DNA from: Hydrocarboniphaga daqingensis
Lineage (GTDB): Bacteria; Pseudomonadota; Gammaproteobacteria; Nevskiales; Nevskiaceae
NCBI RefSeq assembly: GCF_900129825.1
Contig: NZ_FQWZ01000007.1
Coordinates: forward strand, 62,001-126,000
DNA length: 64,000 bases
Direction: 5' to 3'
Positions 31,868-42,445 of this stretch are shown piece after piece (within the stretch, counting starts at the first letter, position 1; every line of letters begins with the position of its first letter). The translations under genes and the position numbers were made by a program. The notes under the pieces were generated by a model. It was not told where the DNA came from, did no database searches, and was given only the letters and a program-made list of their open reading frames with translations.

Positions 31868-33100
31868 CTACGGTTTGACGATGACGGTTTGACCGTCGGC
31901 AAACGTGCTGCTGTCGCCGATGGCGACGCGCTCGCCGGCCGACAGGCCGGCCAGCACAGTCAGCGTTTCGCCTTGCGAGGGCCCCAGCTTGACCGCACGA
32001 CGTTCGAGCTTGTCGTCGCGGACCACCCAGGCCACGCCGGTATCGCCACTCACTTGCACCGCACGCGCCGGCACGCGTACGCCGGCCGGCGCTGCAACGG
32101 CGCCGGCGCTCGGCGCGGCGCTGAGAAACGCGACGCGCGCGCCCATGTCCGGCAGCACGCGCGGGTCGCCCTTCTGCTTGAAGCCGACACGAACTTTGAC
32201 GGTGGCCTTGGCGCGATCGGCGGTGGGGATAATCGCGATCACTTCGGCCGGGATTTCCCAGTCCGGATACGCATTGAGCTTGATCAATGCCGGCTGCGCG
32301 GGACTGACGCGGTTGATGAAGCTTTCGTTGACGTCGACTTCGACTTCCAGCGATTCCATGTCGACGATCGTGCCGATGCCGGTGCGAGTGAAGCCACCGC
32401 CGGCCGACAGCGGCGAGACGATTTCGCCGGTCTGCGCGGCCTTGACCGTGATCACGCCGGCAAACGGAGCGCGCACGACGGTGTCGTCGAGGTTCTTCTG
32501 CGAGACGTTGACGGTGCGCGACGCCACCTCGCTGTTGCGCTGGGCGGTGACCAGCTGCGCCTTGAGGTTGTCGAGCGTGGTCCGTGCGTTGTCGACATCG
32601 GCCTGGCTGACGAAATTGCGCGCCAGAAGCTGCTGGCGACGCTCGTAGTCCCGCTGGGCATTGTCGAGTTGCACGCGCACTTGCTGCTCGGATGCCCGTG
32701 CCAGCGCCAGCTGGGCTTGCGCCTGGTCAAAGCTGGCGCGGATGTTGGTGTCGTCGAGCCGGCCCACGATCTGACCTGCCGCAACGCGCTGCCCTTCTTC
32801 GATCAGCACCTCGATCACCTTGCCGGTGATTTCCGACGACACGGTGGCCATGCGCCGCGCAACGACGTAGCCCGAGGCGTCGAGCGTCGAGGCCGGCGCA
32901 CCACTCGCGCCGCCGGCCGACTCGACCCGCGCCACCTGCACGGCGATGCCATCGGGCCGCATCAGCCACCAGGCCACGGCCGCGATCAGCGCTGCGACGA
33001 TCAGGCCGATCACGATCCAGCGGCCGACGCCTACTTCGCCATCAGGCTCCGGGGCACGGTCGATCTTCAGCTGGTTCAGCAGTGCGGCTTTGTCGTTCAT
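31868..33100 (-). CDS. MacA/HlyD-like periplasmic adaptor protein
   Basis: This 410-residue membrane-fusion protein has an N-terminal membrane helix (about residues 26-47), a split lipoyl domain (AGQIVGRLDDTNI and DDTVVRAPFAGVITVKAAQTG), a coiled-coil hairpin between them (QAQAQLALARASEQQVRVQL, QQLLARNFVSQADVDNARTT) and beta-barrel/membrane-proximal domains. It should link the MacB-type permeases to an outer-membrane channel. It is the first gene of the minus-strand exporter operon. Confidence 0.92.
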   Translation of the reverse strand: MNDKAALLNQLKIDRAPEPDGEVGVGRWIVIGLIVAALIAAVAWWLMRPDGIAVQVARVESAGGASGAPASTLDASGYVVARRMATVSSEITGKVIEVLIEEGQRVAAGQIVGRLDDTNIRASFDQAQAQLALARASEQQVRVQLDNAQRDYERRQQLLARNFVSQADVDNARTTLDNLKAQLVTAQRNSEVASRTVNVSQKNLDDTVVRAPFAGVITVKAAQTGEIVSPLSAGGGFTRTGIGTIVDMESLEVEVDVNESFINRVSPAQPALIKLNAYPDWEIPAEVIAIIPTADRAKATVKVRVGFKQKGDPRVLPDMGARVAFLSAAPSAGAVAAPAGVRVPARAVQVSGDTGVAWVVRDDKLERRAVKLGPSQGETLTVLAGLSAGERVAIGDSSTFADGQTVIVKP

Positions 33101-33269: not shown

Positions 33270-35312
33270 CTAGCGCAGCGCTTGAGCGGCGAGCATCGAC
33301 GACGGCGACGGACGTGCGCCGGTCGGCGCTGCAGCCCGAGCGGCCTTGCCGGCGGGCAGCGCCTCGACGTCATAGAAGCGCGCCAGATAGGTCGCCGGTG
33401 TACGGTCGGTGACGACTTCGTTCGGGCCTGCGATCTGGCGCTTCTCGATCCAGTAGTAGCGGCTGCCGGACAGCACGGCCGGGAAGATGCGGCGCTCGTC
33501 GAACGTGGCGCAGTTGGCGCTGCCGGGCTGGCACTGGAAGCTGCCGGTGTTGATGTCGATGCTGCGGCTCAGCAGCACGCTGTTGTCGCTGTCGATGGCC
33601 CACCGGAAGAACTGGTTGGGCGTGTTGCTGCTGTCGACGGTGACGAGGTTGCCGTTGTCGTCGATGAAGTCGTCTTCCTGTGAGCCACTGCCGTTGGCGT
33701 CGAAGCGCAGTCGGAAGCCCTTGGTATTCGGCGCCGGTGCCGTTTCGTTGCCGATGCCGAACTGGTAGTAGCGCGCCGGCAGGGTCTGCGCGGTGAACAC
33801 CGGCGGCGGTGTCTCGATGCTGATCGAGGCGCCGGCGTCGATATAGCGCTGTTCGCCGACCGTCAGGTCATAGAACCCGTCAGACGCCACCGTGTCCACA
33901 TCGCGCAGCAGCCGGTAGGTGCTGCGGACGCCGTTGTCGTAGTTGACGTTGATGCCACGCCCGTCGGTGGTCAGCGTCCACTGGAACGGCAGCCCGAACA
34001 GCACGGTGCGGCCGGAGCCGTCGGCATTGAACGTCGCCACGTCGGCTGCAAGGCTGCTGGTGCTGGCGTCGAACACCTGCAGGCTCTGCGTCGCGTCACG
34101 GACATCATCGAGTGTCAGCGTCTGGAAGTCGCTGGTCGTCAGCAGCGTCCGCGCCGCCGTTTCGGTGACGGTGCGATTGCTCAGTTCCGGGCAATCCAGA
34201 TACGTGATCTGGAACGTCGTCGTCAGCGCCAGCGTGCGATCACTCAAGCGGTTGAGCGAAACGCCCTCGCTGACGAAGCGGGCCTGCACCTGCCGCTGCG
34301 TATTGCCGCAGCGCTCGACCGGGAAGCTGATCGACGACACCGGCTCGGCGTAGCGGATCGCGATCGTGTTGCCCTGAACCTGCCAGGTGGATGCGGCCTT
34401 GCCGTCGCCGTTGGTCACCGAGGCGCTGCCATCGACTGCAAACTCGAAGGCCATCACGCGGTTGGTGAAGTTGAATGTAAAGCCGATCTCGTCCGACAGC
34501 TGCGCCGCGAGCATCGCGGGCGGCGTCGAGCCTGCCGGAAGCGGCGGCGTCACCGCCGGGTCCGCCGCCACGGCGGTCGCGGTCTGCTGAAATACGGCCG
34601 GGTCCTGCGCCTGGGCGCTGGCGATGAACGCTTCGCGTGCCTCGGTGTTGAGCGCCAGCGTCAGCGTCGTCGCCTGGCCGGACGGCAGCGGGTAGCTCGA
34701 CGGACTGTCGACCGCCAGCTTGATCGCGGTCGCCAAGTCCAGCACGTCGCCGCCGTTGATCCCGGTCGCCAGTTGGCTCTTCTGCGCGCTGCTGGTGATC
34801 GGCTGGCCGCCGTTGGCCTGCTGCAGCAGCACGGCTTCGGCGGTGCTGACGTTGGTCACCTGGGTAACGAAGCTTTCAGCGGCCGTCAGGACGCCGTCGC
34901 TGCCCGCTGCGGCGATCAGCGCCGACAGGTCGCCGGCCAGGCTGACCAGTTCCACGAAAGCCTGGGCGCCGACGCCGTCGGCGTTGAGGGTGACAAAGCT
35001 CGCACCGGCATCCCGCGGCACTTCGATCGGCAGCGAGTAGTTGCCCTGCGCATCGGCGGTCGCCGTGAAGCTGCGGCTGCCGACCGCTGCGGTGACCACT
35101 GCGTTGGCAATCGGCGAGTCGACGACTTGGCCTCTGAGTGTCACCTTCAGTGTGGGCACCGGAGGCGGCGGCGTGACCGGGTCGCTGCTGCCCCCACCAC
35201 CGCCGCCGCCGCCACAAGCGGCCAGCGACAGAGTGGCGGCCAGCGCCGCAGGGCGCCAGGGCAGGGAGGTGCGAGCCCGTAACAGGCGGGACTCAGAGAG
35301 GGCTGGATGCAT
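33270..35312 (-). CDS. Poly-glycine lipoprotein of unknown function
   Basis: The 680-residue protein has a lipobox (LSLAAC, Cys33) followed directly by eight glycines and a Ser/Pro-rich linker, a common arrangement in surface or periplasmic lipoproteins. After it comes a short carboxypeptidase-regulatory-like beta-sandwich (VDSPIANAVVTAAV, FTATADAQGNYSLPI). The rest is beta-rich with no family I recognise. AAGGAC precedes the ATG. It is divergent from the winged-helix kinase gene with an 11-bp direct repeat in the shared upstream region, so it is a candidate target of that regulator. Confidence 0.8.
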   Translation of the reverse strand: MHPALSESRLLRARTSLPWRPAALAATLSLAACGGGGGGGGSSDPVTPPPPVPTLKVTLRGQVVDSPIANAVVTAAVGSRSFTATADAQGNYSLPIEVPRDAGASFVTLNADGVGAQAFVELVSLAGDLSALIAAAGSDGVLTAAESFVTQVTNVSTAEAVLLQQANGGQPITSSAQKSQLATGINGGDVLDLATAIKLAVDSPSSYPLPSGQATTLTLALNTEAREAFIASAQAQDPAVFQQTATAVAADPAVTPPLPAGSTPPAMLAAQLSDEIGFTFNFTNRVMAFEFAVDGSASVTNGDGKAASTWQVQGNTIAIRYAEPVSSISFPVERCGNTQRQVQARFVSEGVSLNRLSDRTLALTTTFQITYLDCPELSNRTVTETAARTLLTTSDFQTLTLDDVRDATQSLQVFDASTSSLAADVATFNADGSGRTVLFGLPFQWTLTTDGRGINVNYDNGVRSTYRLLRDVDTVASDGFYDLTVGEQRYIDAGASISIETPPPVFTAQTLPARYYQFGIGNETAPAPNTKGFRLRFDANGSGSQEDDFIDDNGNLVTVDSSNTPNQFFRWAIDSDNSVLLSRSIDINTGSFQCQPGSANCATFDERRIFPAVLSGSRYYWIEKRQIAGPNEVVTDRTPATYLARFYDVEALPAGKAARAAAPTGARPSPSSMLAAQALR

Positions 35313-35380: not shown

Positions 35381-35400
35381 CCTCACGAAACCCTCACGAA
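35381..35400. promoter_or_regulatory. Direct repeat CCTCACGAA with 11-bp period
   Basis: CCTCACGAA occurs at 35381-35389 and again at 35392-35400. The 11-bp period equals one helical turn, the spacing used by OmpR/PhoB-type winged-helix dimers. It lies between the divergent poly-Gly lipoprotein gene and the gene for a protein that itself carries an OmpR-type winged helix. Use as an operator is inferred. Confidence 0.6.
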
Positions 35401-35520
35401 GCCCGACGGAAACCTGAGGGGCTGTATCGGACCTGCCACATTCGGAGGGCTCACACTGTGACGTGGTTGGGTTATGGTCTGCAGTGGACGCGCTGCTTCT
35501 GCCGCCGCCCGAGGAGCCAT

Positions 35521-38121
35521 GTGAACGACCGACCGACGCGGGGTGAGGCCCCCGCCCAGTTACCGCCGATGATCTGGCGGTTCGCACAAGCCGAATTCGA
35601 CGAGCTGCGCTGGACGCTGCAGGTGGCCGGCCAAAAGACCGAGTTGGAACCCCGGCCGTTGGAAGTGCTGCGCCAGCTGCTGCGTTATGCCGGCGAAGTG
35701 GTCCGCAAAGACGAACTGGTCGAGGCCGTCTATGGCCACCAGCATGTCAGCGATGGGGCCTTGAACCAGGCCGTCAGCCGGCTGCGTGCCGCACTCGGCG
35801 ACCGAGACCAGATGATCGTCGCGACGGTTCACCGCTTGGGCTATCGAATTGCGGTGCCGGTTGAAGCGCAGCCGGCGTTGGAGTCGCGCGCCCACGCCGC
35901 GCGCCTTCAGGCCGGCGCGACGATTCCGGGTCGCGACGATTGGGAGCTGGTTGAGGCGCTCGGCAGCAACCGCGATATCGAAGTCTGGCTGGCACGCCAC
36001 CGACGGCTCGACGAACGTCGGGTATTCAAGTTCAGCGTCGACGGCGTGCGGCTGTCGTCGCTCAAGCGCGAAGTCACGCTGTATCGGATGCTGCGGGAGC
36101 AGTTGGGTGATCGGGACGATCGGGTTCGGCTGATCGACTGGAATTTCGACCGCGCGCCGTTTTTCATCGAAGCCGAGTTCGGCGGCCCGCGGCTCGACGA
36201 CTGGGCGCAGTCACTCGGCGGACTTGCGACGCTGCCGCTGGATACGCGGCTCGAACTGCTGGCCGATATTGCCGACGCGATCGGAGCAGCGCACTCGGTC
36301 GGGGTACTCCACAAGGATCTCAAGCCGGCCAATGTGCTGGTTTTCCGCGATGGCGCGGGGCGCTGGCGTCCACGCTTGGCCGACTTCGGCAGCGGGCATC
36401 TGCTCGCGGTGGCGCAGGACGCCGCGCTGCAGCCGACGCTGACCGTGGCGGACCAGGGCGCCGCCGGCAGCACGACGCTGTATGTGGCGCCGGAGTTGCT
36501 AACGGGTCAGTCGCCGACCGCGCTGGCCGACATTTATGCACTCGGCGTGCTGCTGTATCAGCTGGTCGTCGGTGATTTGAGCAAGCCGCTGGCACCAGGC
36601 TGGGAGCAGGACGTCGACGATGCCTTGTTGCGCCAAGACATCGCACTGGCCGTCGACGGCAACCCGGAGCGTCGTCAGACCTCGGCCCGGGAGCTTGCGC
36701 TGCAGCTACGCCGCCTGCCGTGGCGCCGGCGCGAATATCAACGTCAGCTGCAGGCTGAACAGCAGGCTGACGAGGCGCGTCGTGCGGCGGAACGTGAACA
36801 TGCGATGCGGCCTTGGCGCCGTGCGGCGCTGGCCGCGATCGGCATCGGCTTCGTCGGCGGGGCCGTGCTGTACGAACACGCGCTGCGTGCCGGCCGCGAT
36901 GCACGCCAGCAGGCGCAGCTGGCGGAGTCCGTGACCGATTTCTTCAACACCGAGCTTCTTGCGGTGGCCTCCCCGTACGACCGGATCGGCGGTGCGCCGA
37001 ATCCGACGATTCAGGAGGCGGTTGACCGGGCCGTGGCGCGAATTGGCGATCGCTTTTCCGACCAGCCGGCGACCGAAGCCGCGATCCGCGCCACCGTCGG
37101 TCAGATCTACGGTGAGATGACCCGTCTCCCGGCGGCCCTGGAGCAGGACCGTCTCGCGGTCGAGCTGTTTGAGCGCAGCTTGGGCGCGACGCATCCGCGC
37201 ACGCTGCGCGCCCGCTACTGGTGGGCGCAGGACCTGACCGAAGCCACGCAGTTCGATGCGGCCGCCGAGCAACTGCGGCGCGCCGATGCCGACGCCGCGC
37301 GCGGTGATGTCGGCGAGGCGCGCACACAGCTCTCGAGGCACCGCGCGCATTGCTACCACGCGATCATCCGCTCGCAGTTTCAAGACGCGGTGCCGCATTG
37401 CGAAGCGACCGTCGAGCTGCAGCAGCAGGTCGACCCGCGCGACCATACGGCGCTGTTCAAATGGCGAGCCAATCTGGCGACGCTGTATTCACGGATGGGC
37501 CGCTTCACCGATGCCGATCCGCTGTTCGAGGCGGGCCTTGCCGCTCTGCGCAAACGCGGCGTCTCCGACAGCCTGACCGCCGCCCGATTCGGTAACTTGT
37601 ACGGACTGAACCTGTTGGCGCAGCAGCGCTACGCCGACGCCGAAGCGGTGCTAGCACCGGCTTATGCGGTGATGAATCGCAACGCGCCCAATACGCTGTA
37701 CACGTTCGAGACGCTGGGCTTGCTGGCGACGATCTACAACGCCACCGGCCGCTTTGATCAAGCCCTGACCGCGGCTCGCGACAGCTACCAGGGCTACCAG
37801 CGCACCGCGGGTGACACCAGCCACTTCACGGCGCAAGCGGCGGCATTGCTGGCCGTCTGCCGCTTCGATGCTGGTGAGTCGCAAGCTGGCTTGCAGCAAC
37901 TCGACGAGGCGCGTGCACAGTTGGTGCAGTTGCTCGGGCCAGACCATCCGCAGACGCAATGGGCCATGTACCGGCGTGCCGAGCTGGGACGTCGCGCTGG
38001 CCTGCCACCGGCCGATCTGGATACGCTGCTGGCCTCGCTGTCGGCATCGGCGCTGCATCGCGCCGAGCCGCGTGACGATTGGCCAGAGCGGCTGGCCGCG
38101 TTGCGTGATTCCTCCGGGTGA
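35521..38121 (+). CDS. Winged-helix DNA-binding / Ser-Thr kinase / TPR transmembrane regulator
   Basis: The 866-residue protein has an OmpR/CadC-type winged helix at residues 18-114 (DELVEAVYGHQHVSDGALNQ), then a protein kinase (about 140-400) with K170, HKDLKPAN (D266) and DFG at 288-290, so it may be active. One transmembrane helix (about 434-450) leads to a periplasmic C-terminal half with TPR-like helical repeats. The GTG at 35521, five bases after GAGGAG, is preferred over a later ATG at 35569. The layout suggests a one-protein system that senses outside and binds DNA and phosphorylates inside. Targets are unknown. Confidence 0.9.
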   Translation: MNDRPTRGEAPAQLPPMIWRFAQAEFDELRWTLQVAGQKTELEPRPLEVLRQLLRYAGEVVRKDELVEAVYGHQHVSDGALNQAVSRLRAALGDRDQMIVATVHRLGYRIAVPVEAQPALESRAHAARLQAGATIPGRDDWELVEALGSNRDIEVWLARHRRLDERRVFKFSVDGVRLSSLKREVTLYRMLREQLGDRDDRVRLIDWNFDRAPFFIEAEFGGPRLDDWAQSLGGLATLPLDTRLELLADIADAIGAAHSVGVLHKDLKPANVLVFRDGAGRWRPRLADFGSGHLLAVAQDAALQPTLTVADQGAAGSTTLYVAPELLTGQSPTALADIYALGVLLYQLVVGDLSKPLAPGWEQDVDDALLRQDIALAVDGNPERRQTSARELALQLRRLPWRRREYQRQLQAEQQADEARRAAEREHAMRPWRRAALAAIGIGFVGGAVLYEHALRAGRDARQQAQLAESVTDFFNTELLAVASPYDRIGGAPNPTIQEAVDRAVARIGDRFSDQPATEAAIRATVGQIYGEMTRLPAALEQDRLAVELFERSLGATHPRTLRARYWWAQDLTEATQFDAAAEQLRRADADAARGDVGEARTQLSRHRAHCYHAIIRSQFQDAVPHCEATVELQQQVDPRDHTALFKWRANLATLYSRMGRFTDADPLFEAGLAALRKRGVSDSLTAARFGNLYGLNLLAQQRYADAEAVLAPAYAVMNRNAPNTLYTFETLGLLATIYNATGRFDQALTAARDSYQGYQRTAGDTSHFTAQAAALLAVCRFDAGESQAGLQQLDEARAQLVQLLGPDHPQTQWAMYRRAELGRRAGLPPADLDTLLASLSASALHRAEPRDDWPERLAALRDSSG

Positions 38122-38124
38122 CGG

Positions 38125-38166
38125 ACAGGCCCGGCAACAGGCAGACTTCTTGCCGGGCCCCTGTTT
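38125..38166 (+). terminator. Terminator-like hairpin after the kinase gene
   Basis: A 10-bp GC-rich stem (GGCCCGGCAA and complement), extended by ACAG/CTGT after two unpaired bases, is followed only by TTT. It would separate the kinase gene from the DUF350 gene that starts at 38176. Confidence 0.5.
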
Positions 38167-38175
38167 CGGAACATT

Positions 38176-38577
38176 ATGCTGTCCTACCTCAGCAGCCTTC
38201 CTGCATTTCTGACGTATTGGGGCTTTGCCGTACTGGCGACGGTCGCTTTCGTCGGCATCTACTTGTGGATCACGCCGCAGACGGAGTTGAAGCTGATCGC
38301 GCAAGGCAATCGGAGCGCCGCGATCAGTCTGAGTGGCGTCATCCTCGGCTTGGTCCTGCCGGTCGCCAGCGCCGTTGCGCACAGCGTCAGCCTGGCCGAT
38401 CTGGCGTCCTGGAGTGCCGTCGCCTTTGCCGTGCAGCTCGTTGCCTATGCCGTCATGCGGCTGATGTGGCGTGATCTGCGATCGCAGATCGAGAACGACA
38501 ATGGCGCGGTGGCGCTGCTCGCGGCCGTCGTGTCCGTCGCGGCCGGCGTGCTCAACGCCGCTGCCATGACCTACTGA
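38176..38577 (+). CDS. DUF350 (YjfL-like) membrane protein
   Basis: This 133-residue inner-membrane protein has about four helices (FAVLATVAFVGIYLWI, ISLSGVILGLVLPVASAVA, AVAFAVQLVAYAVMRLM, ALLAAVVSVAAGVLNAAAM). The sequence NRSAAISLSGVILGL is typical of DUF350/YjfL. It is followed by a DUF1190-like small protein and a glutathionylspermidine-synthase-like protein, the same trio as E. coli yjfL-yjfM-yjfC. Function is unknown. Confidence 0.85.
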   Translation: MLSYLSSLPAFLTYWGFAVLATVAFVGIYLWITPQTELKLIAQGNRSAAISLSGVILGLVLPVASAVAHSVSLADLASWSAVAFAVQLVAYAVMRLMWRDLRSQIENDNGAVALLAAVVSVAAGVLNAAAMTY

Positions 38578-38585
38578 GCGCGTCG

Positions 38586-38957
38586 ATGAAACGATCCGAC
38601 GGCGTGACGCTGACGGTCGCCGGCGTGGCCTTGGTCACCGCGACCGTCTTGGCACCGAATTACCAAAGTCTTGAACGGAAGCGATACACCGACCGTCGCG
38701 ACTGCGAATGCGACTACTCGGCCGCACAGTGTCAAAGCGCCGGTGGTACCGAGGTCGTGGGCCCCTGGTTTGCCAGCGATGAGACGATCCGCCGTCAGGA
38801 TCCAGCGGATCCGGGCCCGGGCCATTGCGATCGCCATTGGCGATCCAGCTCGGGCTATTCGGGTGGTCGAGGCGAACACGGCTCGGTCACCACCGAGCCG
38901 GGCTATCGCAACGGATTCGGCGGCACCGCTCGGCGGGGCACGCCGCCTCGCAGCTGA
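38586..38957 (+). CDS. DUF1190-like small protein (YjfM/YgiB-like)
   Basis: The 123-residue protein has an N-terminal hydrophobic segment (VTLTVAGVALVTATVL), a short cysteine-containing region (CECDYSAAQC) and a Gly/Ser/Arg-rich tail ending GYRNGFGGTARRG, which resembles the DUF1190 tail. In E. coli such genes sit beside GspS-like genes (yjfMC, ygiBC). It lies 8 bp after the DUF350 gene and its TGA overlaps the next ATG, so co-translation is likely. The family call depends partly on context. Confidence 0.65.
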   Translation: MKRSDGVTLTVAGVALVTATVLAPNYQSLERKRYTDRRDCECDYSAAQCQSAGGTEVVGPWFASDETIRRQDPADPGPGHCDRHWRSSSGYSGGRGEHGSVTTEPGYRNGFGGTARRGTPPRS

Positions 38958-40069
38958 TGGAACGACTCGTCTGTCCGCCGCGCGACCACTGGGCCGCCCG
39001 GCTGGAAGCACAGGGCTTCGATTACCACACGTCCGACGGCGTGCCGTATTGGAGCGAAGGCGTCTGCTATCGATTCACCGAGGACGAAATCGATCAGCTG
39101 GAGGCCGCAACCGACGAGCTTCACGGCATGTGTCTGTCGATGGTCGCCGACACGGTGGCCTCGGGGGACTACCACGCGTTCTCGCTGGACGCCGATGCGG
39201 CAGCGCTGGTGGAACGCAGCTGGAAGCGCAGAGAGCCGGCTCTGATGGGTCGTATGGATCTCTGCTTCGACGGGCGCTCTGCGCCCAAGCTCTACGAGTA
39301 CAACGCCGACACGCCCACGTCGCTGCTCGAAGCGGCTGCGATCCAATGGTTCTGGCTTCAGGACGTGTATCCGCAGGCCGACCAGTTCAACTCCATTCAC
39401 GAGAAGCTGATCGCAGCCTGGCAACAGCGATGGCACGGCGACCTGCGGACCGTCCACTTTGCGAGTTTTTCCGCGAGTCGCGAAGACGAGGCGAACGTGG
39501 AATATCTGCGCACGACCTGCGCTCTGGCGGGGCACGCCACCATCGAGCTCGACATTCAGGACGTCGGATGGAAAGGTCGGCAGTTCCTCGATCTGCAAGA
39601 CCAGCCCATCGACCAGCTGTTCAAGCTCTATCCCTGGGAATGGATGCTCGACGAGCCCTTTGGGCAACATATCGCGTCAGCGCCTACCGAGTGGATCGAA
39701 CCGGCCTGGAAGCTGCTGCTGTCGACCAAGGCGCTGTTGCCGGCCTTGTGGAAGCGCCACCCGGGGCATCCGAACTTGCTGGCGGCATCGTTTGATGGAC
39801 GACTGATCGACGGCCCGGTCGTCGCCAAGCCCCGACTGGGCCGAGAGGGCGCCGGCATCCAGGTGTTCCCAACGGCGCTCGACGCGTGGGCCGAACGGGC
39901 ATCGACCGACATCGTGATCCAGCAGTATCAGCCGTTGCCGTCGTTCGAAGGCCACCGACCGGTGATCGGGTCGTGGGTCATCGGCAATCAGGCCGCCGGA
40001 ATCGGGATTCGGGAGAGCCTGACCGACATTACCTCCAACACCAGTCGATTCGTGCCCCACTGGTTCTGA
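38957..40069 (+). CDS. Glutathionylspermidine synthase-like ATP-grasp protein (YjfC/YgiC family)
   Basis: The 370-residue protein has the preATP-grasp motif YEYNADTPTSLLEAA and the late ATP-grasp motif KPRLGREGAGI of the GspS synthetase domain. It lacks the amidase domain of true GspS. YjfC-type enzymes are predicted acid-amine ligases with unproven substrates. The ATG overlaps the preceding stop by one base (TGATG), linking it to the DUF350/DUF1190-like pair. Confidence 0.9.
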   Translation: MERLVCPPRDHWAARLEAQGFDYHTSDGVPYWSEGVCYRFTEDEIDQLEAATDELHGMCLSMVADTVASGDYHAFSLDADAAALVERSWKRREPALMGRMDLCFDGRSAPKLYEYNADTPTSLLEAAAIQWFWLQDVYPQADQFNSIHEKLIAAWQQRWHGDLRTVHFASFSASREDEANVEYLRTTCALAGHATIELDIQDVGWKGRQFLDLQDQPIDQLFKLYPWEWMLDEPFGQHIASAPTEWIEPAWKLLLSTKALLPALWKRHPGHPNLLAASFDGRLIDGPVVAKPRLGREGAGIQVFPTALDAWAERASTDIVIQQYQPLPSFEGHRPVIGSWVIGNQAAGIGIRESLTDITSNTSRFVPHWF

Positions 40070-40205: not shown

Positions 40206-41090
40206 CTAGTTGAAGTCTTCGTCCTGCTCGTCGCCGTCGTCGAGCGTCAGGCTGCGCGTGTCACCGACAAAGTCGAGGTCGTCGTCGCGGGCGGCGTCTT
40301 CGATGTCGCCGTTGCAGGTCAGTGCCAGCGTGTAGTCACCGGACGGCAGCAAGGGCAGCGTGTACGACCAATCGCCGCTGCTGCCGCTGCGGCTCACCGG
40401 CGCGGACGCCAGCGGCGCCGGCTCGGTGCCGTCGGCATCATTGGGCGTCACGTCGCGGCCGCGGAACGCGTAGATCGCCACGCCGACGCCTTCGTTGCGG
40501 TTCTGGCGGCAGCTGCTGGCGCTGATCAAGCTGCTGCGCACGCTGCCGCTGACCTGACCGGCGCGGCTGTCGCGCGCGGCGCGCAGCACCGGACGCAGCT
40601 CGCGTCGGTCGCCATTGGCCGCCAAGGACAGACGCAAGTCGAGCCGCGTCTGCACCACGTAGGTCCGGCCGTTGTCGTTGACCTTCAATGCCAGCGCAGC
40701 GAAGTCGGCATCGTCAGCGACGATGTCGAGCGGGCGCTGCGCGCCGTTGGCATCGACGACCAGGTTGTCGGTGTCGCTGCGGTCGCTGTCGCTGAAATCG
40801 ACGCGAATGCCGTTGAACTCGCCTTCATCCAGGCCTTCGGCGCCGAGCAGCGAGAACGCGTTGCGGTCGAAGCGCATCAGATCGACGCGCAGCGGATCGT
40901 CGAAGGTGTAACGGTCCAAGCTGCCGTCGGTGCGGCGCAGCGTGACGCCCGCGATCTGCACGACCACCTGTTGCGTGGCGGCCACCGCGGGCCGGTCGGC
41001 GCTCAGCTCGACGCTGACGCGTCCGTCTTCACAGGCGCTCAGCGCAACGACGCTGGACAAGATCAGCAGGCAACGGCTCGGCAGATTCAT
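40206..41090 (-). CDS. DUF4382 lipoprotein
   Basis: This 294-residue lipoprotein (lipobox ALSAC, Cys20) has a DUF4382-type domain: VVVQIAGVTLRRTDGS followed by FNGIRVDFSDS. The C-terminal part looks like a carboxypeptidase-regulatory-like beta-sandwich (WSYTLPLLPSGDYTLALTC) and the tail is very acidic. It lies 38 bp downstream of hisD on the same strand and could be read through from it, but has no known role in histidine synthesis. Function is unknown. Confidence 0.8.
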   Translation of the reverse strand: MNLPSRCLLILSSVVALSACEDGRVSVELSADRPAVAATQQVVVQIAGVTLRRTDGSLDRYTFDDPLRVDLMRFDRNAFSLLGAEGLDEGEFNGIRVDFSDSDRSDTDNLVVDANGAQRPLDIVADDADFAALALKVNDNGRTYVVQTRLDLRLSLAANGDRRELRPVLRAARDSRAGQVSGSVRSSLISASSCRQNRNEGVGVAIYAFRGRDVTPNDADGTEPAPLASAPVSRSGSSGDWSYTLPLLPSGDYTLALTCNGDIEDAARDDDLDFVGDTRSLTLDDGDEQDEDFN

Positions 41091-41128
41091 CGGGCGGACT
41101 CCATGACCGGGCAGACCGGCGCAGCGTA

Positions 41129-42445
41129 TCAGCTGCGATCGCGCGCCGAGGCAGCGTGCGCGTGCAGACCTTCGGCATCGGCGATACGACCGGCGATCGC
41201 TGCCAGCGGGCATGCGCCGTCGGCGGTGCAGTCGATCAGGCTGCTGCGCTTCTGAAACTCGTAGACGCCGAGCGGATTGGAGAAGCGCGCGGCGCGCGAG
41301 GTTGGCAGCACATGGTTGGGACCGGCGCAGTAGTCGCCGAACGATTCCGGAGCGTGACGGCCCAGGAACACGGCGCCGGCATGGCGGATCTGCTGCAGCA
41401 GCGCGCGCGGATCGGCCACCGACAGCTCCAGATGCTCGGGCGCGATGCGGTTGCTGATCTCGGCGGCCTGCGCCAGATCGCGGACCGCGATCAGCGCGCC
41501 GCGTCCGGCCAGCGAGGCGCGCACGATGGCCGCGCGCGGCAGTTCGGCAAGCCGCTGTTCCATTGCCTCGGCAACGCGCTCCAGATAGGCGATGTCGGGC
41601 GCGATCAGGATCGACTGCGCGTCTTCGTCGTGTTCGGCCTGGCTGAACAAGTCCATCGCGATCCAGCGCGGATCGGTCTGACCATCGCAGATGACGACGA
41701 TCTCGGACGGCCCGGCGATCGAGTCGATGCCGACACGGCCGAACACGGCGCGCTTGGCGGCCGCAACGTAGGCGTTGCCGGGGCCGACGATCTTGTCCAC
41801 CGGCGGAATCGTCGCCGTGCCCCAGGCCAGCGCCGCCACCGCCTGCGCGCCGCCGATCGTGAACACGCGATCGGCGCCGGCCAGATGTGCTGCGCCGAGC
41901 ACGGCGTCATTGGGCTTGCTGTGGCCCTCGGCGTCGCTGGGCGTGGGCACGACCATGATCACTTCGGGCACGCCGGCGACCTTGGCCGGAATCACGTTCA
42001 TCAGCACGCTCGACGGATATGCCGCCTTGCCGCCGGGCACATAGACACCGACGCGGTCCATCGGCGTCACGCGCTGGCCGAGGCGGTTGCCCAGCTCGTC
42101 GCTGAATTCCCAGTCGGCCAGCTTCTGATGCTCGGCATAGCGGCGGATGCGCGCCGCCGCCGCTTCGAGCGCCGCGCGCAAATCGGCCGGCAGCCGCTGC
42201 CATGCGGCGGCCAGCTCGGCTTTGGGAATCTCCAGCTCGGCTGCCTGGCTGACGCTGCGGCGGTCGAAGCGGTTGGTGTATTCGAGCAGCGCGGCGTCGC
42301 CGCGACGGCGGATGTCGGCGACGATCGCGTCGACGGTTTGCGTGACGCTGGCGTTTTGTTCGGGCGCGCGGTCCAGAAGCTGGTCGAGCTGGGCGTCGAA
42401 GCCGGCGGCGCTGGCGTCGAGCCGCAGAATCTCAAGCCGGCTCAT
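41129..42445 (-). CDS. hisD: Histidinol dehydrogenase
   Basis: This 438-residue zinc enzyme catalyses the last two oxidations of histidine synthesis, histidinol to histidine. Recognisable motifs are [54 protein letters not shown] and SEIVVICD, with late histidines in APEHLEL and [11 protein letters not shown]. The ATG overlaps the hisG stop by four bases (ATGA), so it is the second gene of a hisGD operon. Confidence 0.97.

Follow-up and report, generated by a model that had tools for sequence, protein, structure and literature searches.

A winged-helix Ser/Thr kinase with a predicted periplasmic TPR domain and a candidate operator in its own divergent promoter

Introduction

Work on bacterial Hanks-type kinases usually treats them as separate enzymes, and their substrates are hard to find. 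The locus described here, located in a 64-kb window (the whole stretch of DNA analysed, G000:C13:62001-126000, from a genome of 3.8 Mb), raises the question of whether a receptor kinase could act directly on the promoter that it shares with a neighbouring gene. A predicted sensor, a kinase and a DNA-binding output are combined in one chain, and a likely operator stands in plain sight; given these two features, the control of transcription by a receptor kinase becomes testable at a single locus. A preliminary description of the sequence had suggested that the protein regulates its own gene as well as a divergently transcribed lipoprotein gene, and we consider here how the architecture of the protein, the repeat in its promoter and the relatives of both bear on that suggestion.

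Architecture and Distribution of the Kinase Protein

The open reading frame as called begins at a GTG at position 35458 (35458-38121, 887 aa). However, the start is likely to be the GTG at 35521 rather than the one at 35458, since a likely Shine-Dalgarno sequence that would serve it (GAGGAG, 35511-35516, forward strand) lies just upstream and homologues start shortly before the winged helix; the product is then a protein of 866 aa (35521-38121, forward strand). Its N-terminal part is an OmpR/CadC-type winged helix (35569-35865, forward strand; PF00486, Trans_reg_C, E=3.7e-14, 53 bits against a curated cut-off of 26.2), for which the DNA-binding domain of CadC is the closest solved relative (5ju7, E=1.1e-10). 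Alignment places the recognition helix at approximately residues 100-113 in the 887-aa numbering, with the key residue Q104 encoded at 35767-35769 of the forward strand. On the same strand follow a predicted Hanks-type kinase domain (35935-36720; PF00069, E=1.1e-16), a single transmembrane helix (36820-36876), which appears as a hydrophobic stretch in the translation and as part of a long helix (433-483) in the predicted model, and a C-terminal TPR solenoid, presumably periplasmic (37009-38109; PF13424/PF13374, model helices 497-863). The preliminary description had read the protein as a join of DNA-binding, Ser/Thr kinase, membrane-helix and TPR domains, and this holds: the matches to Trans_reg_C, Pkinase and TPR_12/TPR_10 are all above the curated Pfam cut-offs, and the predicted model contains the winged helix, a kinase (partly at low confidence), one long transmembrane helix and the TPR solenoid. 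The window protein has no match to a receiver domain (Response_reg), and the kinase, the transmembrane helix and the TPRs are found in its place.

The kinase carries the Hanks-type residue set (VAIK Lys, αC Glu, HRD Asp, DFG Asp and APE Glu), with K191, E205, D287, K289, N292, D309 and E346 all present, the HRD motif in the variant form HKD and a degenerate Gly-rich loop. Across the family, K191 and E205 are found in 122 of 122 members and the other catalytic residues in 120-121 of the 122. A fold search with the whole model assessed the TPR part only and returned LGN, Rap/NprR and KLC-like structures; the modelled solenoid therefore resembles the peptide-binding TPRs of these proteins in its predicted fold.

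No NCBIfam model reaches its cut-off on the window protein, no named Pfam or NCBIfam family covers its whole length, and in the open-access literature we found no paper describing a winged helix–kinase–TM–TPR architecture. The protein is best regarded as known parts in a new arrangement. Strong relatives are present in 43 of the 85 genomes of the window's own order and in 15 of 78 genomes of a Dokdonella-type family, and are rare across the class (2/229 genomes in a wide sample, both from the window's own order). Up to nine copies of the family are found per genome.

Comparison with Known Systems

Several known systems share parts of this arrangement. ToxR and CadC have the same N-terminal cytoplasmic OmpR-type winged helix, single transmembrane helix and C-terminal extracytoplasmic sensor as the topology predicted for the window protein, which differs in having a PF00069 kinase between the winged helix and the membrane. 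In Streptomyces, the SARP regulator AfsR combines an OmpR-like winged helix with TPRs, binds direct repeats and is linked to the Ser/Thr kinase AfsK; AfsR carries an ATPase domain and is cytoplasmic, the kinase AfsK being a polypeptide of its own. The winged helix, the TPRs and the link to a Ser/Thr kinase are thus shared with the window protein, whereas the kinase of the latter is in the same chain. The NCBIfam model for AfsK gives a weak score over the window kinase.

The closest worked-out case in which a kinase–TM–TPR receptor controls transcription is PknS–EcfK of Xanthomonas citri, where the Hanks-type receptor kinase PknS phosphorylates the ECF43 sigma factor EcfK (PMC13147305). Both PknS and the window protein have a kinase, a transmembrane helix and a periplasmic TPR domain (predicted for the latter), with control of transcription as the output (proposed in the case of the window protein), but the substrate of PknS is a separate sigma factor, whereas the window protein has an OmpR/CadC-type winged helix fused to its N-terminus. 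This comparison introduces a different explanation, in which the window protein would be a receptor kinase chiefly for other proteins and DNA binding would only position it or provide local feedback. The match to the PknS architecture (PMC13147305) and the intact catalytic residues are in keeping with such a role. On the other hand, no sigma factors occur among the neighbouring genes examined (no ECF sigma factor among the lipoprotein, DUF350 and glutathionylspermidine synthase genes), and the winged helix remains intact, with a specificity that drifts as described below. We consider it unlikely that other substrates are the chief purpose of the protein, and the two roles can coexist.

A Tandem 11-bp Repeat Between Divergent Genes

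The sequence CCTCACGAA occurs twice, 11 bp apart, at 35381-35400, between the kinase gene and the divergent lipoprotein gene. The earlier report of an 11-bp-period repeat in this interval is confirmed by the two tandem units CCTCACGAAAC (35381-35391) and CCTCACGAAGC (35392-35402), which together form the predicted operator (35381-35402, forward strand) and are followed by a degenerate third unit, CCGACGGAAAC (35403-35413, forward strand). The direct repeats bound by PhoB are of the form 7+4 bp with an 11-bp period. The repeat had been called OmpR-spaced; the 11-bp spacing stands, and its form fits PhoB rather than OmpR in particular. A winged helix and tandem direct repeats with an 11-bp period are indeed features of PhoB/OmpR response regulators, from which the window protein differs in that it is without a receiver, predicted to be membrane-bound, and equipped with a Ser/Thr kinase in the same chain. 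The sites of CadC are reported to be head-to-head AT-rich motifs (PMC5430869), whereas the repeats at this locus are arranged head-to-tail at 11 bp.

The motif TCACGAA-N4-TCACGAA has one exact copy (0 mismatches) in the 64-kb window, where a mean of 0.21 is expected by chance, and the window holds no further match within ≤2 mismatches. The genome scan for more copies that had been proposed returned, for the 20-mer at ≤3 mismatches, a sole other match (C4:80006), which was rejected as a second operator as it sits within a coding sequence. A regulon with the same repeat was not found in the seven genomes scanned, each having 1-3 matches, which is near chance; it is therefore simplest to read the circuit as local and private. 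Neither scanning for promoters nor searching for a -10 element at a fixed distance from the repeats gave a hit, and at the repeats of the family no sigma-70 -10 element and no constant spacing were recovered.

On the other side of the repeat lies the presumed target gene, which encodes a divergent exported lipoprotein (33270-35312, reverse strand) with a weak, CarboxypepD_reg-like Pfam match. Its N-terminus, MHPALSESRLLRARTSLPWRPAALAATLSLAACGGGGGGGG, has the lipobox LAAC followed by a poly-Gly stretch (Gly8). Directly downstream is a gene for an HlyD-family membrane-fusion protein (31868-33100, reverse strand), which could be co-transcribed with it.

Enrichment of 11-bp Repeats Across the Family

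Absence of the repeat from related loci would have counted against the proposal, and we therefore scanned 113 distinct relatives (nearly all from genomes of the window's taxonomic family), searching the 300 bp in front of the winged helix's conserved start for a tandem pair with a period of 11 and an identity of ≥9/11. The repeats proved to be enriched upstream of the relatives: a period-11 pair was found in 38 of the 113, compared to 4.35±2.0 in dinucleotide shuffles (maximum 8 in 20 runs), although such counts overstate the number of independent events because the sequences are related. Among the other periods, 22 was raised (15), 10 (14) and 9 (11) were somewhat above background, and most were near it. 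When the set was thinned to one member per 60%-identity cluster, period 11 gave 9.8/38 and other periods 0.7-4.8. The position of the repeats peaks at approximately 100-200 bp before the winged helix.

It might be argued that two such units can come to lie side by side by chance in GC-rich DNA, given that control segments taken from coding and distal parts of the same loci contain period-11 pairs of ≥9/11 in 3-8 of ~110 cases. At ≥10/11, the difference is sharper, with 15 upstream regions against 0-1 in the control segments. Furthermore, a separate set drawn mostly from other bacterial families (sharing two or three loci with the first set) has a pair in 9 of 23 members, and 0 and 0 in two control segments. 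The enrichment, position and period specificity across these 113 + 23 genes, together with the recurrence of the 11-bp period at homologous lipoprotein loci, make chance a highly improbable explanation.

The repeat is by no means universal. About two thirds of the relatives are without a clear 11-bp pair upstream, the window's own paralogue (C2:646003) has no repeat (7/11), and two other long Trans_reg_C proteins in the same genome (with L001 left out) have no 11-bp pair upstream. The intergenic control set included promoters of other family genes, and the extra sites that it produced were inspected singly. The same scan also recovered TTGGATGACAGTTTGATGACAG upstream of a porin-like gene (L161, ~2054), which fits the Pho-box consensus and which we take to be a likely Pho box and a positive control. 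In another genome, three tandem family kinases are found with a CTCTCGAAACA/CTCTCGCAACA repeat between them and a repeated gene for a small exported protein (L151, G010:C5).

Covariation of the Repeat Unit with the Recognition Helix

The repeat unit varies by clade of the kinase tree, and members of one clade share their unit: YCACGRA in the window's clade, and TTCCGACC, TTCCTGAAA, TTTCTTGAGG, TAACGG and others elsewhere. Inspection of these units beside the recognition helices yielded a rule for residue 104. Members with N, Q, S or T at this position have [A/C]ACG-like units (11 A-type, 0 G-type, 1 with both), and those with K or R have GAC/TGA units (15 G-type, 0 A-type, 4 with both, 1 with neither); the comparison of 11:0 with 0:15 gives a Fisher p=1.3e-7, a value without correction for phylogeny and based on classes set post hoc. 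A held-out set with overlaps removed, which admitted pairs at 8/11 as well as above and comprised N/S/T members only and no K/R members, gave 10 A-type, 1 with both and 0 G-type. Two members inside a K clade, L118 and L107, have T104 and CTCAC units (8/11, below the cut of the main count), and fit the rule. Position 104 aligns with Gln70 of CadC, which is among the residues that reflect how CadC, PhoB and PmrA differ in their preferred DNA sequence (PMC5430869). In a partial Mantel test, the distance between units correlated with the distance between recognition helices given the kinase distance (r=0.16, p=0.002). The remainder of the winged helix, treated in a similar way, gave r=0.14 (p=0.009), which means that the signal extends beyond the recognition helix.

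Our main argument rests on this covariation: since changes in the unit go along with changes in the recognition helix encoded next to it, the comparison argues that the fused winged helix itself reads the adjacent repeat. The obvious alternative is that a separate OmpR-family response regulator reads the repeats, leaving the winged helix of the kinase protein vestigial or with its sites elsewhere. The window's own genome encodes approximately seven Trans_reg_C proteins of response-regulator size, and the recovery of the likely Pho box in L161 indicates that an 11-bp scan also sees the sites of response regulators. A separate regulator would, however, have to account for repeats that drift across clades together with the recognition helix of the neighbouring kinase protein, that are concentrated just upstream of the kinase gene, and that in the case of the window's operator are hardly present elsewhere in the genome; it appears distinctly unlikely to us, more so than a main role in phosphorylating other proteins.

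Partner Genes

Family members with a repeat have neighbours in predominantly divergent orientation (35 divergent, 2 co-directional), compared to 42:38 for those without (p=2.5e-6), with neighbour genes predicted from a simple GC3 criterion; the association becomes non-significant after thinning to one member per cluster. The divergent partners are often exported or envelope proteins, including S8 subtilases with Calx-beta domains, a TonB receptor, an RND pump, DUF5122/OmpA proteins and lipoproteins; at least one partner, that of L111, is a LuxR/GAF regulator, and many others are without a Pfam match. A single partner gene conserved across the family was considered and rejected, as the neighbours vary and form several small conserved clusters (the subtilase/propeller group, L165/L170, L115/L116/L120 and L090/L160/L168).

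Of 58 genomes, 10 encode a homologue of the lipoprotein, and in three of these, namely the window, G039 and G044, the gene is divergent from a family kinase. The intergenic array of G039 consists of TTCGTCAGAAA and TTCGTCAGAAC on the lipoprotein strand (10/11). That of G044 is degenerate, being read by eye as GTCATGAATCC, GTCAGAACTTG and ATCAGGACATG with a best pair of 8/11, below the 9/11 flag, and aligns with the arrays of the window and G039. Lipoprotein homologues without an adjacent kinase have a weak 11-bp pair in one of seven cases (L174). The kinases of G039 and G044 are 42-43% identical to the window kinase and belong to another branch of the tree, indicating that the lipoprotein and kinase are not a simple ortholog pair; as these kinases are not close orthologues, the shared pairing may involve replacement of the regulator.

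Two loci place the repeat away from the kinase promoter. In L081, a TTCTAACGGAG/TTCTAAC repeat (~6262) stands before a gene for a membrane protein; the family kinase gene just ahead of it has no upstream repeat. In L144 (10,201 bp), two tandem family kinases are repeat-free upstream and the strong 11-bp pair TTCCGACGAAA, a GACGA repeat, lies upstream of an outer-membrane-like exported gene downstream of them; residue 104 of these kinases is R, which fits the rule for a GAC unit.

These observations bear on whether the repeat could serve autoregulation of the kinase gene only, the lipoprotein being an unrelated neighbour. The great differences between neighbours across the family, and the weakening of the association between repeat and divergence after clustering, would be expected from such an arrangement. 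It sits less well with the pairing of lipoprotein, kinase and 11-bp array in G039 and G044 as well as in the window, with the other divergent partners that recur as clusters, and with L081 and L144, where the repeat is in the promoter of the nearby membrane or exported gene and not in that of the kinase. We regard autoregulation alone as unlikely. Autoregulation together with control of the lipoprotein, as the preliminary description had proposed, is the best reading and is supported by comparative evidence, since the repeats are enriched, arrays are present at three divergent pairs, and the unit covaries with the recognition helix.

A Proposed Circuit

We propose, with a probability of about 0.68, that the window protein is a membrane transcription factor, self-contained and regulated by phosphorylation, which binds PhoB-type repeats in its own divergent promoter and controls itself and one neighbour. 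From the comparative data, the cytoplasmic N-terminal winged helices would bind the 11-bp repeats at 35381-35413 as tandem protomers, and binding in this shared promoter region would control both the kinase gene and the divergent lipoprotein gene. The transmembrane helix would tether the protein to the inner membrane, outside of which the TPR domain could sense a ligand or a partner, perhaps the envelope protein under its control. Such sensing would switch the Hanks-type kinase in the same chain. The analogy of PknS–EcfK suggests that this kinase may phosphorylate itself, the winged helix or the attached linker, thereby tuning DNA binding.

Extended to the family, the proposal would provide one such protein per neighbouring target gene, and given that each has its own diverged repeat, the circuits would be largely private. 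Whether this is a lineage-specific family in which private, clade-specific repeats pair each member with its own envelope or secreted gene, with specificity following chiefly residue 104, seems to us evenly balanced. If true, it would amount to a set of orthogonal cassettes, each made up of kinase, operator and envelope gene, with up to nine copies in a genome. An expanded family with diverging operators would offer a natural series for the insulation of paralogues and for changes in recognition-helix specificity.

Other Genes at the Locus

Downstream of the kinase gene, a GC hairpin (~38125-38163) separates it from a likely operon at 38176-40069, which encodes a DUF350 membrane protein, a small open reading frame and a glutathionylspermidine-synthase-like ATP-grasp protein (PF03738). 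On the reverse strand, 40206-41213 encodes a DUF4382 protein whose N-terminus is lipobox-like (LSACED) and which appears to be a second exported lipoprotein close by.
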